In this document: positions 1 through 12,253 of the stretch, piece after piece
Numbering within the stretch: the stretch's first letter is position 1
How the letters are laid out: every line of letters starts with the position of its first letter
Source: Chloroflexota bacterium
GTDB lineage: Bacteria > Chloroflexota > Dehalococcoidia > GIF9 > AB-539-J10
Length of the DNA: 14,145 nucleotides
Assembly: GCA_030604285.1 (NCBI GenBank)
Contig: JAUVWD010000007.1
Coordinates: 1-14,145, forward strand
Direction of reading: 5' to 3'
Notes under the pieces: model-generated
Seen by the model: only the letters and a program-made list of their open reading frames with translations
Databases searched by the model: none
What the model was told of the DNA's origin: nothing
Translations under genes and position numbers: made by a program

Positions 1-570
1 CTCTTCGGTGTACTCCTTCCGAAATAGAGCATTAGGGTTCAGCGCTCCATGCTTGCTGCATGCCACCTTTGCCATAGCCAGATGGTGTGCGGTGGTGTCG
101 TATTTCTCCATGCGCTTCCTGCACTCCATCGCCCAGTACCCCGGATTCGTTGCGCCGATCATCCTCCAGCGCAGGTAATCCGTGTCCTGAGGGTTCGGGG
201 TTCCCATGAATCCGAAGAATCCCTTCGGCGAGACATCCAAGCCGACAGCAAGGCAAATGTCTCGCTCGCCACTCGCTACCACGTGGTAAGCTGATCTAAC
301 AACAGATGTGGCGCTGGCACACATGTTGAAGATATTGGTAATGGGGATTCCGGTCTCCCCTAGGCGCCCTGCCAGTGCCGGCCCGGCATTGAAACCGTCT
401 GTCCCTCCCCAGACATACTCACTAGCTACCGCAGCCGGTATATCCTTCCACTCCATATTGGCATCCTTGAGCGCATTCATCGCAGCTACAACACCGAGAT
501 CCACAAACGTCTTATCGGGGAATTTCCCCCATGGGTGAAAACCCACACCAATTACTGCAACCTCTGTCAT
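1..570 (-). CDS. Thiolase-like acyl-CoA enzyme (SCP-x/acetyl-CoA acetyltransferase family), partial
   Basis: An open frame of 190 codons begins at ATG 570 and runs off the left edge without a stop, so the C-terminal part is missing. The N-terminus MTEVAVIGVGFHPWGK is typical of archaeal/bacterial SCP-x-type thiolases. NMCASATS, near residue 83, matches the segment carrying the nucleophilic cysteine. The later His and Cys of a true thiolase lie outside the window, so condensing or cleaving activity cannot be confirmed. A strong AGGAGG lies about 7 nt before the ATG and fixes the start. The gene begins 37 nt after the DUF35 stop at 608. That pairing is the usual partnership of this thiolase family with a DUF35 Zn-ribbon/OB-fold subunit, in acyl-CoA thiolysis or condensation. 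Family call is firm; substrate is unknown. Confidence 0.85.
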   Translation of the reverse strand, partial: MTEVAVIGVGFHPWGKFPDKTFVDLGVVAAMNALKDANMEWKDIPAAVASEYVWGGTDGFNAGPALAGRLGETGIPITNIFNMCASATSVVRSAYHVVASGERDICLAVGLDVSPKGFFGFMGTPNPQDTDYLRWRMIGATNPGYWAMECRKRMEKYDTTAHHLAMAKVACSKHGALNPNALFRKEYTEE

Positions 571-607: not shown

Positions 608-1036
608 TCAAACTGGACGGAACTTCCAAGTCATGGCTTCGTTTCCCTCTTTGTCTTCACAGAGCTTCTCGACCACAAGCTCTACGTCTATGCCCGTTTT
701 TACATCCTCTACGCTAACGCCTGTTAGCTGCCCTATAACTTCTATACCTTCAGGCAATGCTACTATCCCGATAGCAAAAGGAACAAATGGCTCGGGGTTA
801 GGGAAAGGTGACGGCACAGGGAAACACTGTATAGTATATGTTGCCAGTTTACCCCGTCTGCTGAGCAGTACCTCTTCGACTGGCTCTAGGGGACAACCAG
901 GCTTATGAAATTCGGAGAACTTGGGAAAGAAATACGTGTTGCAACCCTTGCATAGGCCACCTATAAGATGGGGCTCATCGGCGGGCCAGGTGAACAACCC
1001 CTCCGCCTCAGCATATTGCTTCTTTTCTGTCTTCAT
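608..1036 (-). CDS. DUF35 Zn-ribbon/OB-fold protein, thiolase partner (intact copy)
   Basis: This 142-residue protein has the DUF35 layout: an N-terminal zinc-ribbon-like segment (about residues 25-50), then an OB-fold ending in MTWKFRPV, a typical family C-terminus. Such proteins associate with SCP-x/thiolase-like enzymes and are thought to bind or present acyl-CoA; here the thiolase follows at once. The metal site is unusual. C29-K-G-C32 is normal, but the second pair is H44...C48 (EFHKPGC) rather than Cys-x-x-Cys, so a Cys3His site is likely. The start has a strong AAAGGAGG. It is probably transcribed from the promoter at 1248-1276 through a leader of about 200 nt containing a hairpin. A second copy, about 80% identical in protein but truncated, lies at 8358-8705. 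Confidence 0.85.
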   Translation of the reverse strand: MKTEKKQYAEAEGLFTWPADEPHLIGGLCKGCNTYFFPKFSEFHKPGCPLEPVEEVLLSRRGKLATYTIQCFPVPSPFPNPEPFVPFAIGIVALPEGIEVIGQLTGVSVEDVKTGIDVELVVEKLCEDKEGNEAMTWKFRPV

Positions 1037-1163
1037 TCTAGATATCCTCCTTTCTTCATCCAGATATACAACTTCCCCACCGTGTAGCGGTGAAGGAAAT
1101 CAATGCCTCAGCCCGAAATGGAAAAAGGAGAGCCGAACATAGCTCCCCTTTACGATGCACCTC
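700..1163 (-). repeat. Duplicated DUF35 segment, copy 1 (gene plus leader)
   Basis: This segment aligns with 8369-8830 in the same orientation at a nearly constant offset of 7667-7669. It covers the first 113 or so codons of DUF35, the ribosome site and about 125 nt of upstream leader. Positions 702-759 are identical to 8371-8428 (58 nt without a mismatch); elsewhere similarity is lower but continuous. Beyond 1163 the two copies become unrelated. The promoter at 1248-1276 is therefore not part of the repeat. Confidence 0.85.
1124..1151 (-). promoter_or_regulatory. Leader hairpin upstream of DUF35 copy 1
   Basis: Arms 1124-1132 and 1143-1151 can pair (9 positions, one A-C mismatch) around a 10-nt loop, in the untranslated leader about 90 nt before the DUF35 start. 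The equivalent hairpin in copy 2 (8792-8817) is perfect, with one A-T pair replaced by G-C. There is no T tract after it in the direction of transcription, so it looks more like an mRNA stability or translation element than a terminator. Confidence 0.5.
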
Positions 1164-1247: not shown

Positions 1248-1276
1248 ACTATAATGCGAGCAGCGGATTTTGTCAA
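1248..1276 (-). promoter_or_regulatory. Predicted sigma70 promoter for DUF35-thiolase
   Basis: Read on the minus strand, a perfect TTGACA (1276-1271) is followed after exactly 17 nt by TATAGT (1253-1248), one mismatch from the consensus -10. Transcription would start near 1241, giving an untranslated leader of about 205 nt before the DUF35 ATG at 1036. It is the best promoter match I found in the window and separates the DUF35-thiolase pair from the transporter genes upstream. Confidence 0.75.
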
Positions 1277-1590: not shown

Positions 1591-1737
1591 AAGCTTGTGT
1601 AGCTCCGCTGTCTACTCTCGCCTGAGTGGTCATCAAGAAGGGGGAAAGGTTAGGTGGAGGTGTCCCAAATTCTAGGTTTTTGAACAGTCCTAGGTATTTA
1701 TAAGGTACGAGCAAGCCTATCCTGTCATGTTAACGCC
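1591..1737. other. Intergenic stretch 3' of livF, nothing recognised
   Basis: Downstream of the livF stop I see no convincing intrinsic terminator. The best inverted repeat is a 5-bp CTAGG/CCTAG pair near 1674-1695 without a T tract. A 79-codon minus frame crosses this stretch (1475-1714) but has no ribosome site and overlaps the transposase relic, so I do not call it a gene. Confidence 0.5.
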
Positions 1738-2442
1738 TTACAGTCCAAGATAAGCCTTCCTAATTTCTTCATTCTTGACCAACTCTGCGGTAGTGCCCTC
1801 CAAAACTAGGTCTCCGTTGGTCAACACGTAACCACGGTTGGCAAGCTTTAGACCCATACGAGCATTCTGCTCCACCAGTAGTATGGCTATTCCCTCTCGA
1901 TTAATCACCGTCATCTGCTCAGCTACGTGTTGCGTTACTAACGGGCTTAATCCCAGCGAGGGCTCATCTATTAGAAGCAAGGCTGGCCCAGCCATTAAGC
2001 CACGCCCTATGGCTAGCATCTGTTGCTCGCCGCCACTCAAGCTTTCCCCTCGTTGCCTAGTTCTTTCCTTCAATATCGGAAAAAGATGGAAGATCCTTTC
2101 TAATTCCCTCTCTACTTTCGTTTTGTCCTTTTGCAAATAGGCGCCCATTTGCAAATTTTCCATAACCGTGAGTTTTGGGAAAATCCTTCTTCCTTCGGGT
2201 ACATGGATAATGCCTCTTGCCGCTATCTTTTCTGGTGCCAGTCTATCTATTCTCTCGCTCCGAAACCATACCTCACCCTCGCTAGGATTTATTACTCCAC
2301 TTATGACATTCAAAACAGAGGTCTTTCCCGCTCCATTTGGCCCGATTACAACAACGAAATCACCTTCTCCAACTTCCAAACTGATGCCCTTTACAGCTTC
2401 TCTCTTGTTATAGTGCACTCTGATAGACTTCAGCAGTAGCAT
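1738..2442 (-). CDS. livF: Branched-chain amino acid-type ABC transporter ATPase LivF
   Basis: This 234-residue protein has normal LivF length. It has Walker A GPNGAGKT (residues 34-41), the LivF-type PEGRRIFP in place of a Q-loop (82-89), an intact signature LSGGEQQ (135-141) and Walker B LLLIDEP (155-161). It also has LVEQN, the LivF variant of the switch region. It is one of two cytoplasmic ATPases powering a HAAT-family importer of hydrophobic amino acids or related acids. The ATG lies 2 nt after the livG stop, with GAGGG within the end of livG as ribosome site, so it is translationally coupled. All catalytic motifs are intact, unlike its partner LivG. Confidence 0.95.
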   Translation of the reverse strand: MLLLKSIRVHYNKREAVKGISLEVGEGDFVVVIGPNGAGKTSVLNVISGVINPSEGEVWFRSERIDRLAPEKIAARGIIHVPEGRRIFPKLTVMENLQMGAYLQKDKTKVERELERIFHLFPILKERTRQRGESLSGGEQQMLAIGRGLMAGPALLLIDEPSLGLSPLVTQHVAEQMTVINREGIAILLVEQNARMGLKLANRGYVLTNGDLVLEGTTAELVKNEEIRKAYLGL

Positions 2443-2444
2443 TG

Positions 2445-3215
2445 CTATCCCTCTTCAACTCCCAAATAAGCTTCTATGACCTTTCTATCAGTTGTCACTT
2501 CTTCAGGGCTGCCATCGGCAATCTTGCGCCCAAAGTCTAGCACCACAAGCCTGGGACAAATATCTACTACTGCCTTCACATCATGCTCGACTAGCATAAT
2601 GGTAATCCCTTGGTCTCCCAATTTCTTGATGAGGTTGATTACAAGGCCCTTCTCCTCATGGCTTATGCCTGCCATTGGCTCATCTAAGAGCAGTAGTGTT
2701 GGGTTTGTTGCTAGAGCCATGGCTAGCGCCAGAAGACGGCAATAACCGTAAGGCAGCTTTCCAGCTAAGCTGTCCCTGAACTCAGCCAGCCCCACAGGTT
2801 GAAGCAATTCCTCAGCCTCAGCCCTTTGGGTCACTTCCTCTTTGCAGTAGCGACTTGTATTGAAGAAGCTCTGCCACGAATTGGTTTTGCATATCAGGTA
2901 AAAGCACCTTGTTATATTCTCCAGTACAGTGGCATCCTCGTAAAGCACATATGACTGGAATACTCGCGCTATTCCCTTTCTAGCTATTTGATCCGACCTC
3001 AAGCCAGATATTCTCTTGCCTCTGTAGATTATTTCGCCTTCGAAACGGCGGTAGTAACCGCTGATAAGATTGAACAGCGTTGTTTTCCCAGACCCATTGG
3101 GGCCAATTACCCCTATTAGCTCCCCTTGATTAATGTCTAAATCAAACTCACGAAGAGCGATCAAATTTCCAAAGCGCTTGGTCAGCTTCCTCAGCTCTAG
3201 AATCGGCATAGCCAT
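2445..3215 (-). CDS. livG: Branched-chain amino acid-type ABC transporter ATPase LivG, unusual signature motif
   Basis: At 256 residues this matches LivG in length and order: Walker A GPNGSGKTT (38-46), Q-loop RVFQ (Q87), Walker B LLLLDEP (174-180) and switch LVEHD with H211. The signature motif is altered. Where LivG normally has L-S/P-x-G-Q-Q-R, this reads LPYGYCR (154-160), so both glutamines are replaced by Tyr and Cys. The signature of one subunit completes the ATP site of the other, so one composite site may be weakened; that is inference. Two in-frame ATGs (3215, 3209) are possible starts; neither has a strong ribosome site. The gene starts 30 nt after livM and is followed within 2 nt by livF. 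Confidence 0.93.
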   Translation of the reverse strand: MAMPILELRKLTKRFGNLIALREFDLDINQGELIGVIGPNGSGKTTLFNLISGYYRRFEGEIIYRGKRISGLRSDQIARKGIARVFQSYVLYEDATVLENITRCFYLICKTNSWQSFFNTSRYCKEEVTQRAEAEELLQPVGLAEFRDSLAGKLPYGYCRLLALAMALATNPTLLLLDEPMAGISHEEKGLVINLIKKLGDQGITIMLVEHDVKAVVDICPRLVVLDFGRKIADGSPEEVTTDRKVIEAYLGVEEG

Positions 3216-3245
3216 ATGTGCTTTTCCATCAATCTAACCAGTTTC

Positions 3246-4241
3246 CTAGTCACCTCGTTTCTTGTGCCTCCTGACTGCTGGCATTGAACTAATTCGCGGC
3301 GCTCGAGATATATATCGCCCTAGGTCTACTAGGCCACCGGGCAGCAGGACCACTACCACTATCACAATAATACCATATATTAAGGGCTTCATCCCTACCA
3401 TTAGTGCACTTGTCAGGTATCCTCCTCCCGCTGACAGTACCAGAGCACCGATTATTGGGCCGAGAACAACAGAGCTTGTTCCTCCCACAATGCCCATAAT
3501 CAAGATCATGATAGAGTCCCAAACGTCAAAAGTAGTAGGGCCCATAAAAAGAGTGAAATGGCAGAAAAAGGCACCTGCAATTCCGGTAAAGAAGCCAGCA
3601 ATAGCGAAGATTATCACTTTATATTTCATCAGGTGTATGCCCATATGCTCCGCTAGGAGCTCATTTGACGCAATGCTCCGAAATATCCTTCCCAGGCGGC
3701 TACGATCAGCCCTCCAGAAAACTACTGCAGCTATAAGCACAAGAACCACCATCACATAGTAGAATGGCACCTTACTAGCAATGAAATCTATGGTAATGTT
3801 GCCTATGTGAATGGTACTGGGCGCAGAGGGGGTGAGACCAGTAGCCCCTCGGGTGAGACTCTGCCAGTTTGAGGCTACTATTCTAACAATTTCGCCGAAA
3901 ACCAGAGTGACAATGGCAAAATAGATTCCCCCCAACCTCAGCACTACAACCCCTAGTGCTAAGGCAACCAAGGCAGCGGCTATCCCAGCCACAACTAGGC
4001 CGAACCAGAAGGGAATTCCCAGGTTAATTGTCACTAAGGCGGAGGCATAGCCACCAATGGCCATGAACGCTGCCTGACCCAGGCTAAACTCACCTGTCCT
4101 CAAAATCGCCACGAATCCCATAACAGCTATAGCCCATACACCGGCCTCAATAACTAGGGAAAGAATGAATGGGTCCGTGGTAATTAGGGGAAAACACAGG
4201 ACAAGAATCAATCCCACAACTGGAGGAATGACCTTTTTCAT
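3246..4241 (-). CDS. livM: Branched-chain amino acid-type ABC transporter permease LivM
   Basis: This 331-residue, mostly hydrophobic protein has the LivM pattern. An N-terminal set of membrane helices includes the conserved GEFSLGQAAFMAIGGYASA. A cytoplasmic loop with the permease EAA-like element follows (FRSIASNELLAEHMGI, about residues 188-203), then GGTSSVVLGPIIGAL and a basic tail rich in Arg/Lys. It would form the inner-membrane channel with LivH and dock onto LivG/LivF. AAGGAC precedes the ATG by about 7 nt, and the gene begins 10 nt after livH. Nothing suggests damage. The transported compound cannot be read from the permease. Confidence 0.94.
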   Translation of the reverse strand: MKKVIPPVVGLILVLCFPLITTDPFILSLVIEAGVWAIAVMGFVAILRTGEFSLGQAAFMAIGGYASALVTINLGIPFWFGLVVAGIAAALVALALGVVVLRLGGIYFAIVTLVFGEIVRIVASNWQSLTRGATGLTPSAPSTIHIGNITIDFIASKVPFYYVMVVLVLIAAVVFWRADRSRLGRIFRSIASNELLAEHMGIHLMKYKVIIFAIAGFFTGIAGAFFCHFTLFMGPTTFDVWDSIMILIMGIVGGTSSVVLGPIIGALVLSAGGGYLTSALMVGMKPLIYGIIVIVVVVLLPGGLVDLGRYISRAPRISSMPAVRRHKKRGD

Positions 4242-4251
4242 CGTTTGTCCT

Positions 4252-5109
4252 TCACGCTCTTGGACGGCCGAATATTCCCTCTGGTCTGAGCAATAACACA
4301 GCTATGACGATTAGGAAGGCGGTCAATTCGCTCCACGGGCCAAGATAATAAATGAGAAAAGTGCCCGAGAATCCCAGTAATGCTCCTCCGACAACAGCGC
4401 CTAGTACACTTCCCAATCCTCCTATGACAATGGCTAGCAGTGCCATAATCAGAGGTGTAAGCCCGATCCAGGGATCAACGAAATACAGGGGTGCCATAAG
4501 GGATGCTGCTATACCGGCTAGGGCGCAACCAATAAACATGGTCTGACTCAATGTTCGTCCCCTTCTTACTCCGTACAGACTGGCCGTGTATGGGTCCTGT
4601 GCGCTGGCCCGCATTGCCAGTCCCATCCTCGTATGGCTCACTAAGAAATAGAGCCCAATCATTACTGCAACAGCAATTGCCACTACGACCAGCTTTTCAT
4701 TGCTTACAGTTAAGGCGCCAATTGAGGACACACCTGGAACGGCACTGGGTACAGCCTTCTTTGCAGGGCCAAAAAAGAGCGTAGCTATGCCTTCGAAGAG
4801 AAAGATCAGGCCCAGTGTAACCACCACCGGGGGCAAGAGACCGTTGGGAGCGAGGGGTCGCAATAGCCCCCTCTCTATGGCTATACCGAGAAGACCTATG
4901 GCGACAGCGGTAATGATCAAGCTTACGAAGTAGTTTATGCCAGCGCGGGCGAACATATAATAAATGAGAAACGCACCCAACATATAAAGCTGGCCATGGG
5001 CGAAATTCACTATGCCCATAATGCTGAAGACCAGCACCAAGCCTGACGCTATGAGTATGTAAATGCTTGAAAGTAGTAACCCGTCCATCCATACGGCAAC
5101 AGGTGGCAT
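4252..5109 (-). CDS. livH: Branched-chain amino acid-type ABC transporter permease LivH
   Basis: This 285-residue hydrophobic protein carries LivH hallmarks: GIVNFAHGQLYMLGAF near residues 32-47, the loop MRASAQDPYTASLYGV (about 182-197) that contacts the ATPases, and GLGSVLGAVVGGALLG near the C-terminus. It is the second channel subunit and the first gene of the livHMGF block. An AGAGGAG stands about 10 nt before the ATG. It lies 289 nt downstream of the binding-protein gene, separated by a strong stem-loop at 5292-5337, so its expression may be set lower than that of the binding protein. Confidence 0.94.
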   Translation of the reverse strand: MPPVAVWMDGLLLSSIYILIASGLVLVFSIMGIVNFAHGQLYMLGAFLIYYMFARAGINYFVSLIITAVAIGLLGIAIERGLLRPLAPNGLLPPVVVTLGLIFLFEGIATLFFGPAKKAVPSAVPGVSSIGALTVSNEKLVVVAIAVAVMIGLYFLVSHTRMGLAMRASAQDPYTASLYGVRRGRTLSQTMFIGCALAGIAASLMAPLYFVDPWIGLTPLIMALLAIVIGGLGSVLGAVVGGALLGFSGTFLIYYLGPWSELTAFLIVIAVLLLRPEGIFGRPRA

Positions 5110-5291
5110 TTCTTTCGCGCTCCTCTAGACTGTACGTACGCTCTGAGATGAAACAAACAGGATGAATAGAGCCAACGGGGGGTGAAAAGAATCTTTAATA
5201 ACTAGCCTTCCGAACAGAAACCGCCTTCGAGCTAGTGAATCAATAAATGCCTTTGCCCGGCTATGTGCTCGACGCAATCCAGCAAAAGCCT

Positions 5292-5337
5292 CGGTGGGAA
5301 TGAAGATATTGTACGTGTCCCTTCTTCATCCCCACCG
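5292..5337 (-). promoter_or_regulatory. Long stem-loop between binding-protein gene and livH
   Basis: Arms 5292-5306 and 5323-5337 form a 15-bp stem with a single G-T wobble around a 16-nt loop, starting about 60 nt after the binding-protein stop. On the minus strand the stem is followed by AGGCTTTTGC, which has only four T residues. It is therefore a poor intrinsic terminator and a better candidate for a 3' mRNA-protecting or attenuating structure. Such elements commonly give a periplasmic binding protein higher expression than its permease genes. Confidence 0.65.
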
Positions 5338-5398
5338 CAGTAGTTCCACACTTACCACCAAATGCTCTGCAAACTAGATTTCGGGACCAACTCTATGC

Positions 5399-6619
5399 CT
5401 ATGGTATTTCCAGTATCGGATGTTCGCTGGCATAGACCTCTTCGTATCCCTCTAGTTTGGAAAGACAATTAGGGTAGCCAAAGACCAGAAGAGAACCATA
5501 GGTCTTCTCGCCCGATAACGTATATTCTCCCAGGAACGTATCGAACGTCCCTCCCTTAAAGGTGTCCATGATTTGGTCTGGATCGAGGGTACCAGCCTTT
5601 TCCAACCCCGCAAATAGTTGGGACATATGCTGCAAACCGTAACCAAATCCGCCCATATACCTCATCGGCTCGCCATACTTTTCTTGATACCGATCGGCTA
5701 TTCTGCCAGCCATTTCCAGCAGTTCAGGTGAGACTTCTACCTTCTTTAATGCCCAGGGACAAGGCCAGTCACTCATTGTTCCCTGCGCAGCTTCATAGCC
5801 AGCCATTTCCGCAAACTCATAGGGATCCAGCATAGTGCCTGCTTGGCAAAGATGCCAATCGTAGCCTTGTTCGGCTGACTGCTTGGCCATCATAGCAACA
5901 TATCCTGTGGCAGCCCAGGTATAGATAAGATCTACACCTTCTTCATCGAATTTCACCAGATACGTTGTAAAATCCGTAATGCCGACTGGATGCGTTTGGG
6001 AGAACAGGCCTATGCCTCTCTCCTCAAGTTCGGCCTTTGCCTGCGCAATTTCTTTCTCCAGCATTGGCTCCACCAGTGTCGACTCTAGATCACCTACCAT
6101 GGTAGTCCCAGGATATGCTTCAACAAAGGCAAGAATCTGGGTATCGACAAACTCAATGACAGGGGTGCCAATGACAGTATAGGGATGCTTTCCAAGGGGA
6201 TCGAAATCTGGATGCTCCTTGGATATAAAGATAACTTTCTCTGGATTTGTTACGGCGGCGGTTGCAGGGAATCCATCACCGTAGTATCCGACAATAAAGC
6301 TGACCTTCTTGTCATATACCAGTTCTTTGGCAGCCCTGCTCCCTCCTTCGGGTGAGTATTCACCATCGGCAAAAAACATCTCCACCTGATAGGTCTCATT
6401 GCCTATTTTGATGCCTCCATCCTCATTTATTAATTCAGCGTAGACTTCCATTTGTGGCTTAATTGCGTCTCCCCATGGCGACGCAGGCCCACTGAAAGGC
6501 ATGATGCAGCCCACCTTTAGAGTCGCGACCTCAGGCTCCGGCGGCCGACAAGCTGGCAACATGAGAAAAACCGCGAGAGCCAGCACGGCAACGCTGATGG
6601 TCATAAGCTTCTTTTTCAC
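5399..6619 (-). CDS. livK: Liv/HAAT-type substrate-binding lipoprotein
   Basis: This 406-residue periplasmic-binding-protein-type (Peripla_BP_6) protein starts with a lipoprotein signal peptide: basic MKKK, a hydrophobic stretch, then lipobox LPAC with the lipidated Cys at residue 24. The mature part opens with LKVGCIMPFSGPASPWG, the usual first strand and ligand-contact loop of LivJ/LivK-like proteins. The start is GTG at 6619; AAGGAGG lies 9 nt upstream, and a start at the later ATG (residue 6) would remove the basic n-region. It would capture substrate for LivHMGF outside the membrane. A second AAAGGAGG stands about 45 nt further upstream without an obvious start codon. The ligand is unknown; these proteins also bind aromatic acids and amides. 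Confidence 0.92.
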   Translation of the reverse strand: MKKKLMTISVAVLALAVFLMLPACRPPEPEVATLKVGCIMPFSGPASPWGDAIKPQMEVYAELINEDGGIKIGNETYQVEMFFADGEYSPEGGSRAAKELVYDKKVSFIVGYYGDGFPATAAVTNPEKVIFISKEHPDFDPLGKHPYTVIGTPVIEFVDTQILAFVEAYPGTTMVGDLESTLVEPMLEKEIAQAKAELEERGIGLFSQTHPVGITDFTTYLVKFDEEGVDLIYTWAATGYVAMMAKQSAEQGYDWHLCQAGTMLDPYEFAEMAGYEAAQGTMSDWPCPWALKKVEVSPELLEMAGRIADRYQEKYGEPMRYMGGFGYGLQHMSQLFAGLEKAGTLDPDQIMDTFKGGTFDTFLGEYTLSGEKTYGSLLVFGYPNCLSKLEGYEEVYASEHPILEIP

Positions 6620-6737
6620 TTTTCTTTTCCTCCTTCTTTGCTAGTTTCGAGACTCGTGAACAGGTTCGCTTTCCTCCTTTCTTTCTGGCGCTGGCCAAGC
6701 ACTAGTGTATTTGAATCCCTTCAAGTCGTCCCACGAC

Positions 6738-6766
6738 AAGTTAACATGCAAACGGGGGTCTGTCAA
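6738..6766 (-). promoter_or_regulatory. Possible promoter upstream of the binding-protein gene
   Basis: On the minus strand a perfect TTGACA (6766-6761) is followed after 17 nt by TAACTT (6743-6738), which matches only three of six -10 positions. It lies just after the stop of the HpaB-like gene and about 120 nt before the lipoprotein start. It could drive the transporter independently of the upstream gene. The -10 is weak. Confidence 0.35.
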
Positions 6767-6787
6767 CCTACGCGAACACCTAGTCTC

Positions 6788-8188
6788 CTATTTTATCTGT
6801 GAAAGGAGCTTCCCAATAATCCTTTTTGGCTCGTCAAAGTTGTACGTACGATATAGCTCTATTAAACTCGCTCTTATTGAACCCTCGGCGTGAATATGAA
6901 TCACACTCTCCTCCCCGCCCAGAAGTGAGATTGCCTCGCGCAATAGCAAAAATAGCTTGAATCTTTCTTCGCCCGGTATCGCCCCCCTCAAATATTTATT
7001 GATATCTCTCCTTAATTCTTCATTAGCATAGTCATCCCCGCTTGGCGCTGCAACGATTAACCCCCCGCCTATGTCTATCAAAGACCTCATGACGTTTAGG
7101 TAATTTTCATTGGAATACAATTTCCCGATGTTTGTGTAAATGGCATTGGGAATAGCAATGCCTGTTCCGTCATCCTTTGTACATTCGTATGCAGCCATCT
7201 TAGCGCAAAGCTTTTGGATTTCTGCGAAAGCTATGAGATCGACCATATCTTTTTGGATATGGGGAACTTCGTCAATGCCGTTTGCTTCTGCAACAAGTTT
7301 CCCAAGTCCAACTAGATACTCAGCAAGCCCAGCTCTATACGACACAGCCGATAGACGATGCCAAAGCGCAAACAGAAGGGCAAGCCTAGTGCCGCGCTCA
7401 ACATCTTTGTGAACAAAGACACGTTCCCATGGTACAAAAACATTGTTAAAGATTGTCAAGCTCTCCACATGAGTCACCTTTTTGGTTCTTGGTCCTTCCA
7501 GGTCGTGTAGAGCTGCCTCAGTTGCTGTGGCTGGTCTAGAAATCAGCTTTAAACCTCTAGCATTTGTTGGTACCGCAAAACATATTGCGTAATCCTCTTC
7601 CCCCTTACGCAGTCCCCTTCCTGGCAGAACAAGAATCTCATTGGAGACCAGACTGTAGGTTGTGTGCATTTTGGCCCCGCGCACGATGACCCCGTCAGGC
7701 TTTTCATCAACAACGTGAACATGTACATCTGGATCTTCCTGTTGAAGCGGCCTTAATTGACGGTGTCCTTTAACATCAATCTGAGCTACGGCTAGGAATA
7801 GGTTGTCTTTCGCTACATCCTGTGCATAACTAGTAATTCTCTCTCTATACTCGTCCATGTCGTTGATGACAATCATCGTAGCAAACAAGGCATCAGAGCC
7901 AATATGCGGCATAAGAACACCAGCATCTTTTGTGATCTCGTATGTTAGCTGCCAGCGTTCCAGGAGATCGGAACTAGTACGGGGAACTTTATAGAACTTC
8001 GAAGTTTCAGCACCAAGCTCCGGATCATCGTAAAGAAATTTCTTCTCAAAGAAATGCCTCATAGTATCAACTTCTAAGCTTGTGATCGGATGTTTAGTAA
8101 CATCCTCAACTTTCCTTCCCCGGTAGTAGACTTCCCGCCCATCAACTAGACTTTTCTTATATTTCTCAAAATTTCTGTTGGTTTCCAT
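6788..8188 (-). CDS. HpaB/4-hydroxybutyryl-CoA dehydratase-family flavoprotein lacking Fe-S ligands
   Basis: This 466-residue protein belongs to the HpaB/AbfD superfamily, with an acyl-CoA-dehydrogenase-like fold. Recognisable parts are the N-terminal SLVDGREVYYRGRKVEDV, GVIVRGAKMHTT (about 166-177), NEILVLPGRG, VFVPWERVF (about 250-258) and a helical C-terminal domain. In 4-hydroxybutyryl-CoA dehydratase the [4Fe-4S] cluster is held by a CxxxC pair and an H-x6-C pair. Here the first region (about 85-105) contains no Cys, and the second reads H277...Y284. A cluster is therefore unlikely and the enzyme is more probably a flavin-dependent hydroxylase or isomerase. AGGAGG precedes the ATG. Immediate neighbours are the DUF35 remnant upstream and the transporter downstream. 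Substrate unknown. Confidence 0.85.
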   Translation of the reverse strand: METNRNFEKYKKSLVDGREVYYRGRKVEDVTKHPITSLEVDTMRHFFEKKFLYDDPELGAETSKFYKVPRTSSDLLERWQLTYEITKDAGVLMPHIGSDALFATMIVINDMDEYRERITSYAQDVAKDNLFLAVAQIDVKGHRQLRPLQQEDPDVHVHVVDEKPDGVIVRGAKMHTTYSLVSNEILVLPGRGLRKGEEDYAICFAVPTNARGLKLISRPATATEAALHDLEGPRTKKVTHVESLTIFNNVFVPWERVFVHKDVERGTRLALLFALWHRLSAVSYRAGLAEYLVGLGKLVAEANGIDEVPHIQKDMVDLIAFAEIQKLCAKMAAYECTKDDGTGIAIPNAIYTNIGKLYSNENYLNVMRSLIDIGGGLIVAAPSGDDYANEELRRDINKYLRGAIPGEERFKLFLLLREAISLLGGEESVIHIHAEGSIRASLIELYRTYNFDEPKRIIGKLLSQIK

Positions 8189-8357: not shown

Positions 8358-8705
8358 CTATATTGTTCTTACATCCTCTACGCTAACGCCTGTTAGCTGC
8401 CCTATAACTTCTATACCTTCAGGCAATGTTACTATCTCTAGAATGAAAGGAACAAGTGGCTCGGGGTTCACAAAGGGTGATGGCACAGGAAAGTACTGTA
8501 CAGTATAGCTTGTCAGTTTGCCCCTTCTGCTAACGAGCACCTCTTTCACTGGCCCCTGGGGACAACCAGGTTTATGAAATTCGGAGAACTTGGGGAAGAA
8601 ATAGGTGTTGCAACCCTTGCATAGGCCACCTACAAGATGGGGCTCGTCGGCGGGCCAAGTGAACAACCGCTCTACCTCAGTACGCTGCTTCTTTTCTATC
8701 TTCAT
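8358..8705 (-). CDS. C-terminally truncated DUF35 Zn-ribbon protein (second copy, probable pseudogene)
   Basis: The 115 codons from ATG 8705 encode a protein about 80% identical to the intact DUF35 protein at 608-1036, including the same C29, C32, H44, C48 set. It stops at VEDVRTI, so the last 27 or so residues of the OB-fold, including the WKFRPV end, are lost. The ribosome site has changed from AAAGGAGG in copy 1 to AAGCAGG, which is weaker. An open frame extends upstream to 8789, but the shared start and the alignment end favour 8705. No thiolase follows; the next recognisable gene is the HpaB-like flavoprotein. Missing fold elements and the weaker ribosome site suggest a non-functional copy. 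Confidence 0.75.
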   Translation of the reverse strand: MKIEKKQRTEVERLFTWPADEPHLVGGLCKGCNTYFFPKFSEFHKPGCPQGPVKEVLVSRRGKLTSYTVQYFPVPSPFVNPEPLVPFILEIVTLPEGIEVIGQLTGVSVEDVRTI

Positions 8706-8830
8706 TCCCGATATCCTGCTTCCTTCGCTCGAATGCACAAGTTGCCCCGTACAGCAGGGGAGGAGATTGATGCCTTTGCGGCGGAACAAAAGAGGGGAGC
8801 TACGTACAACTCCCCTCCGCCAGACACCTC
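8369..8830 (-). repeat. Duplicated DUF35 segment, copy 2, inserted after acpP remnant
   Basis: This is the counterpart of 700-1163. Its upstream edge (8830) falls exactly where the acyl-carrier-protein coding sequence stops making sense. Its downstream edge falls where the DUF35 frame runs into a stop. The repeat therefore accounts for both gene truncations. Similarity persists in the non-coding leader, including the hairpin, so the event moved DNA rather than only conserving protein. Confidence 0.8.
8792..8817 (-). promoter_or_regulatory. Leader hairpin upstream of DUF35 copy 2
   Basis: Arms 8792-8799 and 8810-8817 pair perfectly over 8 bp (GAGGGGAG with CTCCCCTC) around the loop CTACGTACAA. 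It is the counterpart of 1124-1151 in copy 1. Compared with that copy, one A-T pair has become G-C and one mismatch is repaired, which suggests pairing matters. The stem lies within the frame that runs on from the acpP remnant. Confidence 0.5.
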
Positions 8831-8988
8831 CACAGCCATGATAAGCTCAACCAAATCTAACGAGCCAGCATTAAGATCTTCCGTAAAAGAGGCCTCTCGG
8901 GTCACCTCGTTTCCTCAACGCCTAACTGCTCTACAGTGACTCTCTTCAGCCGTTCAAAAATGGTTGCCTCATTGCCTCCTTGATTCAA
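8828..8988 (-). pseudogene. acpP: Acyl carrier protein gene remnant (acpP), frameshifted and truncated
   Basis: One frame gives ATIFERLKRVTVEQLGVEET before a TGA; the neighbouring frame continues VTREASFTEDLNAGSLDLVEL and IMAVE. Joined by restoring one base near 8905, these match the first 45 or so residues of AcpP. The phosphopantetheine Ser is present, but the preceding Asp of the DSL motif is Gly. After MAVE the family sequence (EEFGIEIPDEDAEKI in typical members) is absent and the DUF35 repeat begins. A clean start is also missing: AAGGAGG (8981-8975) is followed too closely by an out-of-frame ATG. An in-frame TTG at 8988 overlaps the nusB stop. This copy cannot make a working carrier, so a functional acpP should exist elsewhere if the sequence is right. 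Confidence 0.8.
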
Positions 8989-9410
8989 TTTGCAGATTTA
9001 TCTCTCTGACCATGTTGGGTCACTACCGAACCAAGTACCCCGTTGATTAACCGTGGTGAAGAAGCACTGCCGAAAGCCTTGGCTAGCTCTACAGCTTCAT
9101 TTATAGTTACCTTAATCGGAGTGTTATCGTCAAATAAGATTTCAAAGATGGCAAGACGCAGGATATTTCTATCAATAACAGCCATTTGTTCTACAGGGAA
9201 GGCTGGTGCAAATCGGCCAATCACATCATCAAGCGTAAGTCTATTCTGCAGCACTCCTTGCACAAGTTACTGACTGAAGCTAAAGGCCTCCTGAAGCAAG
9301 GCTTTCTCATTTGCTAAACGAGGCAGGACCTCCTCCGCCCTGTGTTTGGTGCAATCAAGCTCATAAAGTGTTTGAAGGGCAATGATTCTAGCCTCTCGCC
9401 TGAAACCCAT
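8985..9410 (-). pseudogene. nusB: Transcription antitermination factor NusB, interrupted by an in-frame ochre stop
   Basis: Starting at ATG 9410, 2 nt after the fabD stop, the frame encodes MGFRREARIIALQTLYELDC, a classic NusB N-terminus, and reaches TAA at 9269-9267 as codon 48. The same frame then continues LVQGVLQNRLTLDDVI, ...MAVIDRNILRLAIFEILFDD and TPIKVTINEAVELAKAFG to a TGA at 8985. The total is 141 codons besides the final stop, normal for NusB. Only that one codon breaks the gene. A restart at GTG 9263 would give 92 residues lacking the first helices. NusB binds boxA RNA with S10 in rRNA antitermination. This is a nonsense mutation, a sequencing error, or readthrough; the first two seem likelier. 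Confidence 0.85.
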
Positions 9411-9412
9411 AG

Positions 9413-10357
9413 TCAATTTGATACTGCCAGATTTCCTAGTTGGGCGACGCTATCAACCCCCGACACATTGAGAATTTGTGCGCCGGGACTAATTCGCTTG
9501 ATCAAATTGCTGAGCACCACTCCAGGGCCTATCTCGCAAAAGGCAGTAACCCCGTTATGAATCATGTATTCCACGCAATGCTGCCACTGAATACACGAGC
9601 GAAGCTGCCTCACAAGCTCTTCCCTTATCGAATCAACGTCATTAAGGGGTCGAGCGCTCACGTTAGCTATTACAGGAATTGCTGGCGGGTGGAACGCGAA
9701 ATTGGAGATGATTTCACTAAATTCACTTATGATGGGCTCCATTAGATATGAGTGAAATGCCCCACTTACCTTTAAAGGAACGAGTCCGCGGGCACCTTTC
9801 GTCTTGGCCAGAGTTTTACTCTTTGCCAAAGCTTCGATGCTGCCGCTGATTACAGTTTGACCAGGACAGTTGATGTTGGAGATATCGGTTCCGCTTTGAA
9901 GGCAGATATCCTCGATCGTCCCTGTGTCAAGCCCAATTATGGCTAGCATGCCGCCTGGATTTTTTTCCCCAGCTTCATACATTAATCTTCCCCTTTCCCG
10001 AACTAGAAGCAGAGCGTCAACCAGGCTAAGTGCATTGGCAGCAACTAAAGCAGTGTATTCGCCTAAGCTATGTCCGGCGACAAAGCTGGGCAATGGCAAT
10101 TGACTATTACTTTGCTGAACTGCCCTGAGGCAAGCCAGGCTAGTTACTAAGACCGCTGGCTGCACATTGTTTGTCTTCATCAGTTCTTCTTCAGGACCTT
10201 CAAAACATAGATGAGAGATGGGGAAGCCTAAAGCGGCGTCGGCTTCATTGAAAACTTCTTTAGCTGCAGAATAGCTGCTATGTAGATCTCTCCCCATGCC
10301 CACATTTTGTGAGCCCTGTCCCGGGAAGACAAAAGCTACTTTAGCTTCCTCAGCCAT
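9413..10357 (-). CDS. fabD: Malonyl-CoA:ACP transacylase FabD
   Basis: This 314-residue enzyme transfers malonyl from CoA to acyl carrier protein, supplying chain extender for fatty-acid synthesis. Visible motifs are FVFPGQGSQ near the N-terminus (oxyanion loop), GHSLGEY with nucleophile S97, GAFHS with catalytic H202, and the C-terminal EIGPG. Length is normal and all key residues are present. An upstream in-frame start at 10438 would add 27 residues lying wholly over rpmF, so I take the ATG at 10357, four nt after the rpmF stop. It is followed within 2 nt by nusB. It remains intact although its would-be partner acpP, two genes on, is broken. Confidence 0.95.
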   Translation of the reverse strand: MAEEAKVAFVFPGQGSQNVGMGRDLHSSYSAAKEVFNEADAALGFPISHLCFEGPEEELMKTNNVQPAVLVTSLACLRAVQQSNSQLPLPSFVAGHSLGEYTALVAANALSLVDALLLVRERGRLMYEAGEKNPGGMLAIIGLDTGTIEDICLQSGTDISNINCPGQTVISGSIEALAKSKTLAKTKGARGLVPLKVSGAFHSYLMEPIISEFSEIISNFAFHPPAIPVIANVSARPLNDVDSIREELVRQLRSCIQWQHCVEYMIHNGVTAFCEIGPGVVLSNLIKRISPGAQILNVSGVDSVAQLGNLAVSN

Positions 10358-10361
10358 ATTC

Positions 10362-10559
10362 TCAGCTTGCTTTTCTCTTTGGAGCTTTGACCTCAATTGC
10401 TTGCCTACCATTATAGCTACCGCAGGTAGGGCAAACATGGTGGGCTAGCTTAATACTATGGCACTGGGGGCATTCACCCAGGGCAGGCAAAGCCAGCTTG
10501 AGGTGACTGCGCCTCTTTCCCTGGCGTGCTTTGGCATACTTTTTCTTAGGTAGAGCCAT
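10362..10559 (-). CDS. rpmF: 50S ribosomal protein L32
   Basis: A 65-residue basic protein begins MALPKKKYAKARQGKRRSH and carries a zinc-binding pair CPQC (about 30-33) and CPTC (about 43-46), the Cys4 form of bacterial L32. It is a component of the large ribosomal subunit. The AAAGGAGATGGATTGAT sequence spanning the end of yceD supplies its ribosome site, and its ATG lies one nt after the yceD stop. The pairing yceD-rpmF is widely conserved in bacteria. No damage is visible. Confidence 0.96.
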   Translation of the reverse strand: MALPKKKYAKARQGKRRSHLKLALPALGECPQCHSIKLAHHVCPTCGSYNGRQAIEVKAPKRKAS

Positions 10560-10560
10560 A

Positions 10561-11016
10561 TCAATCCATCTCCTTTATTCCAGCACAATCGGGTCTACAT
10601 AGTGGTTTCACAGGCAGATTCAGCAGAGTATATTGACGAATGGCCTCTCCTACATCAAGCATATGATTACTATCAATTGTGGAGTTGGGGGATTCTTCGC
10701 ATGAAGCAAGAGGCAAACCGTCAAATACGTCAGTGGTAGCCAGGAAATCCTCCTCAATATTAAGATTTACGGAGCTGGGGAAAACATTTAGACAGCGACT
10801 GCATACAAGCCCTACTTTAATGGCTAACTGGCCCCGAACCAAAATCCCTTGACCGCTCCGAACTAGCGTCAGCTCCCCTTCAATAGAACTCTCCGCTTGC
10901 TCATTGCCTATCTGGCGTATGTCGTATTTGCGGCTAGAGCCGACAGGCTCCTTCAGCAATTGAGCCACATTTATTAAGCCCTTGAAATGACTTTCTGTTA
11001 TTTTCTCTACTTTCAT
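10561..11016 (-). CDS. yceD: YceD/DUF177 family protein, short C-terminus
   Basis: This 151-residue protein fits DUF177, a family almost always encoded beside rpmF and linked to 23S rRNA/ribosome maturation. It shows the internal CSRCLNVF pair, the acidic stretch after it, and the C-terminal LPVKPLCRPDCAGI. In most relatives with these cysteines the sequence continues with a further CPxCG-type pair. Here it ends in KEMD right after CAGI, so the last zinc knuckle is missing or was never present. It is the first gene of the minus-strand cluster, 30 nt from the -10 of the promoter at 11046-11074. Confidence 0.87.
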   Translation of the reverse strand: MKVEKITESHFKGLINVAQLLKEPVGSSRKYDIRQIGNEQAESSIEGELTLVRSGQGILVRGQLAIKVGLVCSRCLNVFPSSVNLNIEEDFLATTDVFDGLPLASCEESPNSTIDSNHMLDVGEAIRQYTLLNLPVKPLCRPDCAGIKEMD

Positions 11017-11045
11017 AAGCGCCTAGAAATCTGGGGAAACAGTAA

Positions 11046-11074
11046 AGTATAATAGTCGCCTGCAAAGGTTTCAA
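11046..11074 (-). promoter_or_regulatory. Predicted promoter for yceD-rpmF-fabD cluster
   Basis: On the minus strand TTGAAA (11074-11069) and TATACT (11051-11046) are separated by exactly 17 nt, each one mismatch from consensus. Transcription would begin near 11039, about 22 nt before the yceD ATG at 11016. The element shares bases with the -10 of the opposite promoter. Confidence 0.65.
11048..11053 (+). promoter_or_regulatory. Perfect -10 box for the M20 amidohydrolase operon
   Basis: TATAAT stands about 25 nt before the TTG start of the M20 gene. No good -35 sits 16-18 nt upstream, so activation or a weak basal promoter is possible. Its bases overlap the minus-strand -10 (11046-11051), so polymerase could not occupy both at once. 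Confidence 0.45.
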
Positions 11075-11077
11075 GCA

Positions 11078-12253
11078 TTGGAGCTAGAAGGACTAAAGAC
11101 AAAGCTAAGAAACGAGGTAGATGCACGGCGTCAGGAGCTTGTCCAATTAAGCCTTAAGATTCACGATAACCCTGAGCTTAGCTTTGAGGAGAAAAGAGCA
11201 TCCTCCTGGCTTATTGATTTCCTCGGCAGCAATGGATTTCGTGTGCGGAGCACTGTTGCCGGCTTGCCCACAGCCTTTCAAGCAACTTATGGTCAAGGGA
11301 GTCCAAGAATTGCCTTGCTTGCTGAATATGATGCCTTACCTCAAATAGGCCACGGCTGTGGGCATAATATAATAGCTGCTTCAGCAGTGGGTGCAGGTGT
11401 AGCTAGCAAGCTGGCTATTGATCAATTAGGAGGCACCATTGTAGTTTTGGGCACTCCTGGAGAGGAAGGCTTTGGCGGCAAAATAGACATGGTGGAAGCG
11501 GGCGTCTTTGAGGAAATAGACGTGGCAATGATGGTTCATCCTAACACACGGAACATGGTAACCACGGAGATGCTTGCCTGCACTTCCTTGGAGGTGGAAT
11601 TCATCGGTAAGCCAGCACACGCTGCTGCCCAACCGTACAAGGGCGTAAATGCTCTCGAAGCCTTGATTCTAGCCTTTAATTCTGTAAATTCGCTGCGCCA
11701 GCACATAAAAGCGGAGGCCCGAATTCATGGCATAATCACCGATGGTGGGCAGGTACCTAATATAGTGCCTGCTCATAGCGCTGCTAAATTCCTGATACGG
11801 GCGCTTGACAAACTCTACTTGGATGAACTGAAAGAAAAAGTGCTCAATTGCTTTAAGGGAGCATCTCTAGCTACCGGAGCCAAGCTTGAGTACAATTGGG
11901 GAGAGAGGAGTTACTCACCCATGAAGAACAATGTGACCTTGGCCGAGTTGTTTGGCGAGAATTTGCAGTCGCTGGGACGCCATGTGGAAGCCTTTGACCC
12001 TCGCTTTGGCTTCGGCAGCACAGACATGGGAAATGTGAGCCAAGTAGTGCCTAGCGTACATCCCTCAGTAGCTATTGCTGCCCCTGAAGTAGTGATACAC
12101 ACGCCGGAGTTCGCTCAGGCTGCAGCCTCTGAAGCTGGCCATGAAGGACTATTGGACGCGGCTAAGGCAATGGCAGCGACCGTGGTTGATATTCTGGACA
12201 AGCCTGAAACGCTGCACAAGATTAAACAAGAATTCTACAGCTCTCATGATTAA
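11078..12253 (+). CDS. M20 family metallopeptidase/amidohydrolase (AbgB-like)
   Basis: This 391-residue protein belongs to the M20D-type amidohydrolases that cleave amide bonds of N-acyl or aminobenzoyl-amino-acid compounds. Motifs: AEYDALP (82-88), GHGCGHN (91-97) with metal-binding C94/H96 region, GTPGEEG (125-131) carrying the catalytic Glu, MMVHP with H154, and GKPAHAAAQP (178-187) at the start of the dimerisation domain. GSTDMGNVSQVVP and a late His in VVIHTPEF complete the set. The start is TTG at 11078 with a weak AAAGG; no better start lies near. Cytoplasmic, since no signal peptide is visible. It overlaps the next gene by 8 nt, which suggests a shared pathway, but the substrate is unknown. 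Confidence 0.88.
   Translation: MELEGLKTKLRNEVDARRQELVQLSLKIHDNPELSFEEKRASSWLIDFLGSNGFRVRSTVAGLPTAFQATYGQGSPRIALLAEYDALPQIGHGCGHNIIAASAVGAGVASKLAIDQLGGTIVVLGTPGEEGFGGKIDMVEAGVFEEIDVAMMVHPNTRNMVTTEMLACTSLEVEFIGKPAHAAAQPYKGVNALEALILAFNSVNSLRQHIKAEARIHGIITDGGQVPNIVPAHSAAKFLIRALDKLYLDELKEKVLNCFKGASLATGAKLEYNWGERSYSPMKNNVTLAELFGENLQSLGRHVEAFDPRFGFGSTDMGNVSQVVPSVHPSVAIAAPEVVIHTPEFAQAAASEAGHEGLLDAAKAMAATVVDILDKPETLHKIKQEFYSSHD

Follow-up and report, generated by a model that had tools for sequence, protein, structure and literature searches.

Bacterial pseudogenes can form by microhomology-mediated deletion, and acyl carrier proteins (ACPs) carry a serine motif to which phosphopantetheine is attached. 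The acpP locus described here resembles such pseudogenes in its short word common to both sides of the breakpoint, its redundant gene and its further lesions nearby, but differs from the usual case in its partner, a truncated paralog whose full-length counterpart is still present 7.7 kb away. The paralog belongs to the DUF35 family. PMC2954200 proposes that DUF35 proteins, in association with thiolases, deliver acyl-CoA non-covalently, and records DUF35 fusions to thiolase, SDR, SCP2 and hot-dog domains. P0032, a metagenomic chimera discussed below, likewise joins DUF35 to an acyl-handling domain, but its partner is an ACP that lacks the serine, and the main text of PMC2954200 nowhere uses the term "acyl carrier". 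Compared with the DUF35, ChsH2 and BbsA partners of thiolase-like enzymes (6esq, 6ok1 and 7pxp), the copy that we call DUF35-1 is alike in sequence and is followed by a thiolase-like gene, whereas DUF35-2 lacks C-terminal strands and has no thiolase gene after it. Judging by titles and abstract openings among the matches listed, the literature that we searched held nothing on an ACP-DUF35 fusion or an acpP/DUF35 locus.

Gene order and the two DUF35 copies

We analyzed a window of 14,145 bases, which is contig C106 of a genome (G000) of 725 kb in 115 contigs, 59% complete. The order on its minus strand is DUF177, rpmF, fabD, nusB, acpP remnant, DUF35-2, HpaB-like gene, LIV-type transporter, DUF35-1 and thiolase-like gene. 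Family searches named fabD, nusB, both DUF35 genes, HpaB, the thiolase and three transporter genes (those for the binding protein and the LivH-like and LivG-like proteins); DUF177, rpmF and the LivM-like and LivF-like genes are presumed from their translations. fabD (9413..10438) is uninterrupted (PF00698, 140 bits), with a dN/dS of 0.20 against G001, a genome of the same genus. The HpaB-family gene (6788..8188), 4-hydroxyphenylacetate 3-monooxygenase-like, matches PF11794 and PF03241, with the NCBIfam HpaB models below cut-off. The LIV-type ABC transporter (1738..6619) comprises a binding protein, two permeases and two ATPases. The thiolase-like gene after DUF35-1 (1..570) is cut by the window end; it matches PF00108 at 31.7 bits and stays below cut-off for PRK06059-type and BbsB models. 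The NCBIfam scores are 43.5 of 250 bits for BbsA and, with the thiolase cut, 60.5 of 750 for BbsB.

Both halves of the window match G001, at 86% over 8827-12060 (contig C64) and 92% over 1726-7444 (contig C80), and in G001 these halves sit on separate contigs. Synonymous divergence from G001 is 0.14-0.35 for the HpaB and LIV genes and 0.24-0.71 for the fabD half; the lower values would fit an HpaB-LIV cassette that has had a history of its own. Contig C80, of 5723 bases, covers just the HpaB-LIV segment, and it ends on the upstream side of HpaB.

The two DUF35 genes are unequal. DUF35-1 (608..1036, minus strand) is full length at 142 aa (PF01796, 53.2 bits), and its family profile matches 6esq_E, BbsA 7pxp and ChsH2 6ok1. 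DUF35-2 (8358..8705, minus strand) is truncated at its C-terminus to 115 aa, and scores 37.8 bits with PF01796, above the cut-off of 27.1. The zinc ribbon PF12172 reaches 20.3 and 21.9 bits in the copies, below its cut-off of 23.2. When DUF35-1 is modeled with AlphaFold2 (53 sequences; mean pLDDT 92.3), strands lie at residues 117-127 and 133-141; DUF35-2 ends before both and is predicted to lack these last two strands of the OB fold. With a profile of 52 full-length relatives we found no convincing trace of the lost DUF35 C-terminus in the sequence downstream of 8358. The Shine-Dalgarno sequence of DUF35-2, AGCAGG, is weaker than the AGGAGG of DUF35-1, and dN/dS between the copies is 0.27 (NG86) or 0.43 (YN00).

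An earlier note on this DNA had described the DUF35 segments as homologous to a common end at 8830, with a nearly constant alignment offset, and we reproduced both observations. Within the gene, BLASTN aligns 8365-8775 with 696-1108 at 343 of 413 identical positions (83%, E 3e-123), at an offset of 7669. Because this alignment stops short of 8830, the leader was tested separately: global alignment of 8776-8830 with 1109-1163, which ends at an offset of 7667, scored 9.0, a value that none of 2000 shuffles attained and that occurred at 1 of 3940 random places in the window, and the adjacent 55 nt upstream scored -17. In a weaker test (local, unanchored, 192 nt) the score was reached in 14 of 500 shuffles. 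The leader homology up to 8830 is weak, but it runs through a terminator-like hairpin common to both copies, at 8791..8818 upstream of DUF35-2 (-19.7 kcal/mol for 41 nt, z -3.89) and at the aligned position 1124..1151 in the DUF35-1 leader (-15.7 kcal/mol for 41 nt, z -4.05), both on the minus strand. These hairpins have the longest stems among 7 sites in a terminator scan in which shuffles average 7.8 sites; folded at full length, the leaders are only about 1.9 sd more stable than shuffles. At the far edge of the segment, 60 bases (8369..8428) are identical to 700-759, with the remainder of the copies about 80% identical. This contrast points to gene conversion, or to an exchange at this edge that is more recent.

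A tree of DUF35 proteins groups DUF35-1 with P0003, which comes from another assembly, and leaves DUF35-2 outside that group (91/88, moderate support); over 100 columns DUF35-1 is 92% identical to P0003 and 84% to DUF35-2. The tree is otherwise mostly without resolution, and does not resolve a grouping of DUF35-2 with P0032. P0046, P0049 and P0051 seem to be additional copies in decay.

The acpP remnant and its junction

Only the 5' half of acpP is left (8831..8979, minus strand), with 82-88% amino-acid identity to the acpP of G001 in two frames that are separated by a frameshift near 8906. An in-frame ATG at the homologous start is absent from both the remnant and G001 acpP. The match to the intact G001 gene stops at 8827, one base past the MAVE codons, so that, as had been noted earlier, acpP loses its family sequence where the DUF35-2 leader begins. 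The bases from this limit to the end of the homology between the DUF35 copies (8827..8830, minus strand) read GAGG, a word common to acpP and the leaders of both copies, as would be expected of a four-base microhomology joint.

A frame encoding 67 residues (8702..8905, minus strand) runs from acpP through the leader, and the overlap of its TGA with the DUF35-2 ATG (ATGA, 8705-8702), another observation of the earlier note, is confirmed. This junction ORF matches no Pfam family, and no complete PF00550 domain over the cut-off was found in it. The remnant keeps the phosphopantetheine serine (NAGSLDL), but the frame is broken upstream of it. Among 5.8 billion proteins the junction ORF has one listed relative, P0001, which differs at residue 3 alone. 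P0001 represents a four-member cluster whose longest contig has 1779 bases; its source field is "-", as it is for proteins encoded by the window, and the window is possibly one of the four members.

The neighboring nusB (8985..9410, minus strand) is also damaged. An in-frame TAA at 9267-9269 lies inside the PF01029 match, which is not carried by an uninterrupted full-length frame; the nusB of G001 is uninterrupted at 141 aa. The broken gene is the sole NusB found in G000, which is 59% complete. Against G001, dN/dS is 0.14-0.30 for the nusB pieces, similar to the uninterrupted fabD, and 0.12-0.23 for the acpP pieces, which hold only 22 and 25 codons. Since these values resemble those of uninterrupted neighbors, the lesions are probably recent. 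Together with the low dN/dS between the DUF35 copies, they indicate that decay is recent or that some constraint persists.

acpP in relatives and the P0032 chimera

To place the remnant among its relatives we searched 36 genomes of the family. The search gave 29 loci (L008-L036), of which 26 had a nusB end that could be used, followed by 400 bases or more; L028 and L035 were excluded for want of nusB, and L031 is cut. Beside nusB, acpP is intact at 14 of the 26 loci, an 18-residue C-terminal relic at 2 (genus g6) and not found at 10. One of these ten, L009, offers just 409 bases, and nusB is matched there to residue 122; in another, L025, a stretch of 8 residues matches on the opposite strand (E 0.041), which we took as chance. 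On the contigs of the 12 loci with relic or unfound acpP there was no DUF35-1-like match at E <= 0.001. In G007, within about 90 bases past nusB, lies the convergent gene that is found beyond acpP in G001 and G014.

The nearest relative, G001, has the uninterrupted fabD-nusB-acpP order that the earlier note had expected of relatives. Other genes, not DUF35, follow acpP there, and the ORFs after the convergent gene are, we assume, V-type ATPase subunit-like. The sequence following acpP in G001 has no match in G000, which at 59% completeness is no proof of loss. In a tree of FabD and NusB with 26 rows (G006 and G015 were dropped as too short), G000 joins G001 (100/100), and the backbone is too poor for other losses to be counted. 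Because this sister keeps an intact acpP, G000 lost the gene independently. The search for an ACP elsewhere in the genome, suggested in the earlier note, found one on contig C79, flanked by ORFs that we take to resemble plsX and fabG-fabF; G001 has four ACPs. Altogether, acpP occurs side by side in intact, truncated, fused, relic and unfound states, and an essential-looking gene can vanish from a conserved cluster where paralogs may cover for it.

The fused state is that of P0032, a metagenomic protein of 187 aa on a contig of 2441 bases, in which a nearly full-length ACP is in frame with DUF35 from about its residue 13. Proline replaces the phosphopantetheine serine in its ACP. Its DUF35 part ends at the same place as DUF35-2, an end that may coincide with that of its contig. 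Four residues are common to P0032 and DUF35-2 and absent from 11 full-length sequences, two of them being present also in P0046, and both acpP parts, that of the window and that of P0032, have NAG where G001 has NAD. Gene order in P0001 and P0032 is read from protein sequences, and P0032 suggests that acpP and DUF35-2 were already adjacent before the deletion in the window. P0032 has 189 relatives, and among the 120 that were listed only P0032 combines the labels PF00550 and PF01796, and 9 carry PF00550 with PF01029 (NusB-ACP). Joined gene calls of acpP with a neighbor thus occur elsewhere. The missing ACP serine and the DUF35 strands predicted to be missing argue against a working ACP-DUF35 chimera, which would be striking if expressed and would matter only in that case.

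A proposed history and its rivals

We favor, as the probable explanation, a model in which a redundant acpP decayed by microhomology deletion beside a transport and catabolic cassette that had moved. In the ancestor, acpP would have been the last gene of a DUF177-rpmF-fabD-nusB-acpP cluster. We infer that in this lineage acpP acquired an HpaB/LIV-transport/DUF35-thiolase cassette as its immediate downstream neighbor, with an old, C-terminally truncated DUF35 paralog and its hairpin leader adjoining the gene. Since other ACP genes exist, acpP was redundant, and lesions could be tolerated. A deletion between the GAGG of acpP and that of the leader would then have removed the 3' half of acpP, with the acpP frameshift and the nusB nonsense codon arising before or after. 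In a sister lineage a different deletion may have produced P0032, in which acpP no longer encodes its serine and continues in frame into the same truncated DUF35. The simplest reading would thus be that acpP and DUF35-2 stood together in a common ancestor and that separate deletions followed in each lineage. Most likely, neither the remnant ORF with its ATGA overlap nor DUF35-2 has a function.

The earlier note had proposed that one insertion or ectopic recombination of the duplicated leader-DUF35 segment cut acpP and made the junction in the same step, and that this placed a DUF35 gene under the fabD-nusB cluster as a possible coupled fusion. The homology end and the acpP break do lie within 4 bases of each other, and the run of 60 identical bases at the opposite edge suggests recent exchange there, but we consider this account unlikely: the copies have diverged by 17%, DUF35-1 has a closer relative in another assembly than in DUF35-2, and in P0032 a nearly complete ACP lies beside the same truncated DUF35. 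What stands is a recombination joint on a broken acpP; a single recent duplication or insertion is not supported, and the acpP frameshift and the in-frame stop in nusB speak against one event. The idea of retained function, in which the truncated DUF35 (in P0032, the chimera) is a small protein coupled translationally to the remnant ORF, can draw on the ATGA overlap, on the dN/dS between the copies and on the frames of P0012 and P0032, open despite 20% amino-acid divergence over 100 columns. We regard it as quite improbable, because DUF35-2 is without two predicted strands and has the weaker Shine-Dalgarno sequence and a terminator-like hairpin ahead of it, P0032 has proline for the ACP serine, and other copies seem to be decaying. 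The same features of DUF35-2 count against a working DUF35 under fabD-nusB control and against the coupled fusion; an ATGA overlap and an open frame over a breakpoint need not mean a fusion protein. It is very doubtful, too, that the truncated DUF35 was kept after the loss of two strands and that sister strains recruit it by fusion to an ACP unable to carry phosphopantetheine, the carrier domain becoming a structural partner for a protein that handles acyl-CoA non-covalently.

It is very unlikely that the assembly is chimeric, whether across the DUF35 repeat or through a join between bins. The genome is fragmented, the copies share an exact repeat of 60 bases, and the P0001 cluster may in part be the window itself. 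However, P0001 repeats the junction peptide with a substitution, and the longest contig of its cluster differs in length from the window; the two halves of the window match G001, a genome of the same genus, at 86% and 92%; and the exact repeat lies about 400 bases away from the acpP junction.

A few minor observations concern sequences around these genes. A P0032 match across stops on G001:C34 was considered as an ACP-DUF35 relic and rejected; it is instead an ACP ORF followed by another ORF, presumably ketoacyl-synthase-like. The proteins labeled NusB-ACP are P0072, P0081, P0086, P0106, P0109, P0110, P0112, P0131 and P0132. Rfam gave nothing at the gathering threshold in the window, and no known riboswitch family in the leader. 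A promoter-like site upstream of DUF35-1 (1248..1276, minus strand; TTGACA-17-TATAGT) is a consensus match only, one of 5 in a scan with a shuffle mean of 9.9, and lies outside the segment common to DUF35-1 and DUF35-2. The stretch 1037-1276, which comprises this site and a DUF35-1 leader of about 200 bases with the terminator-like hairpin, is a possible attenuator.
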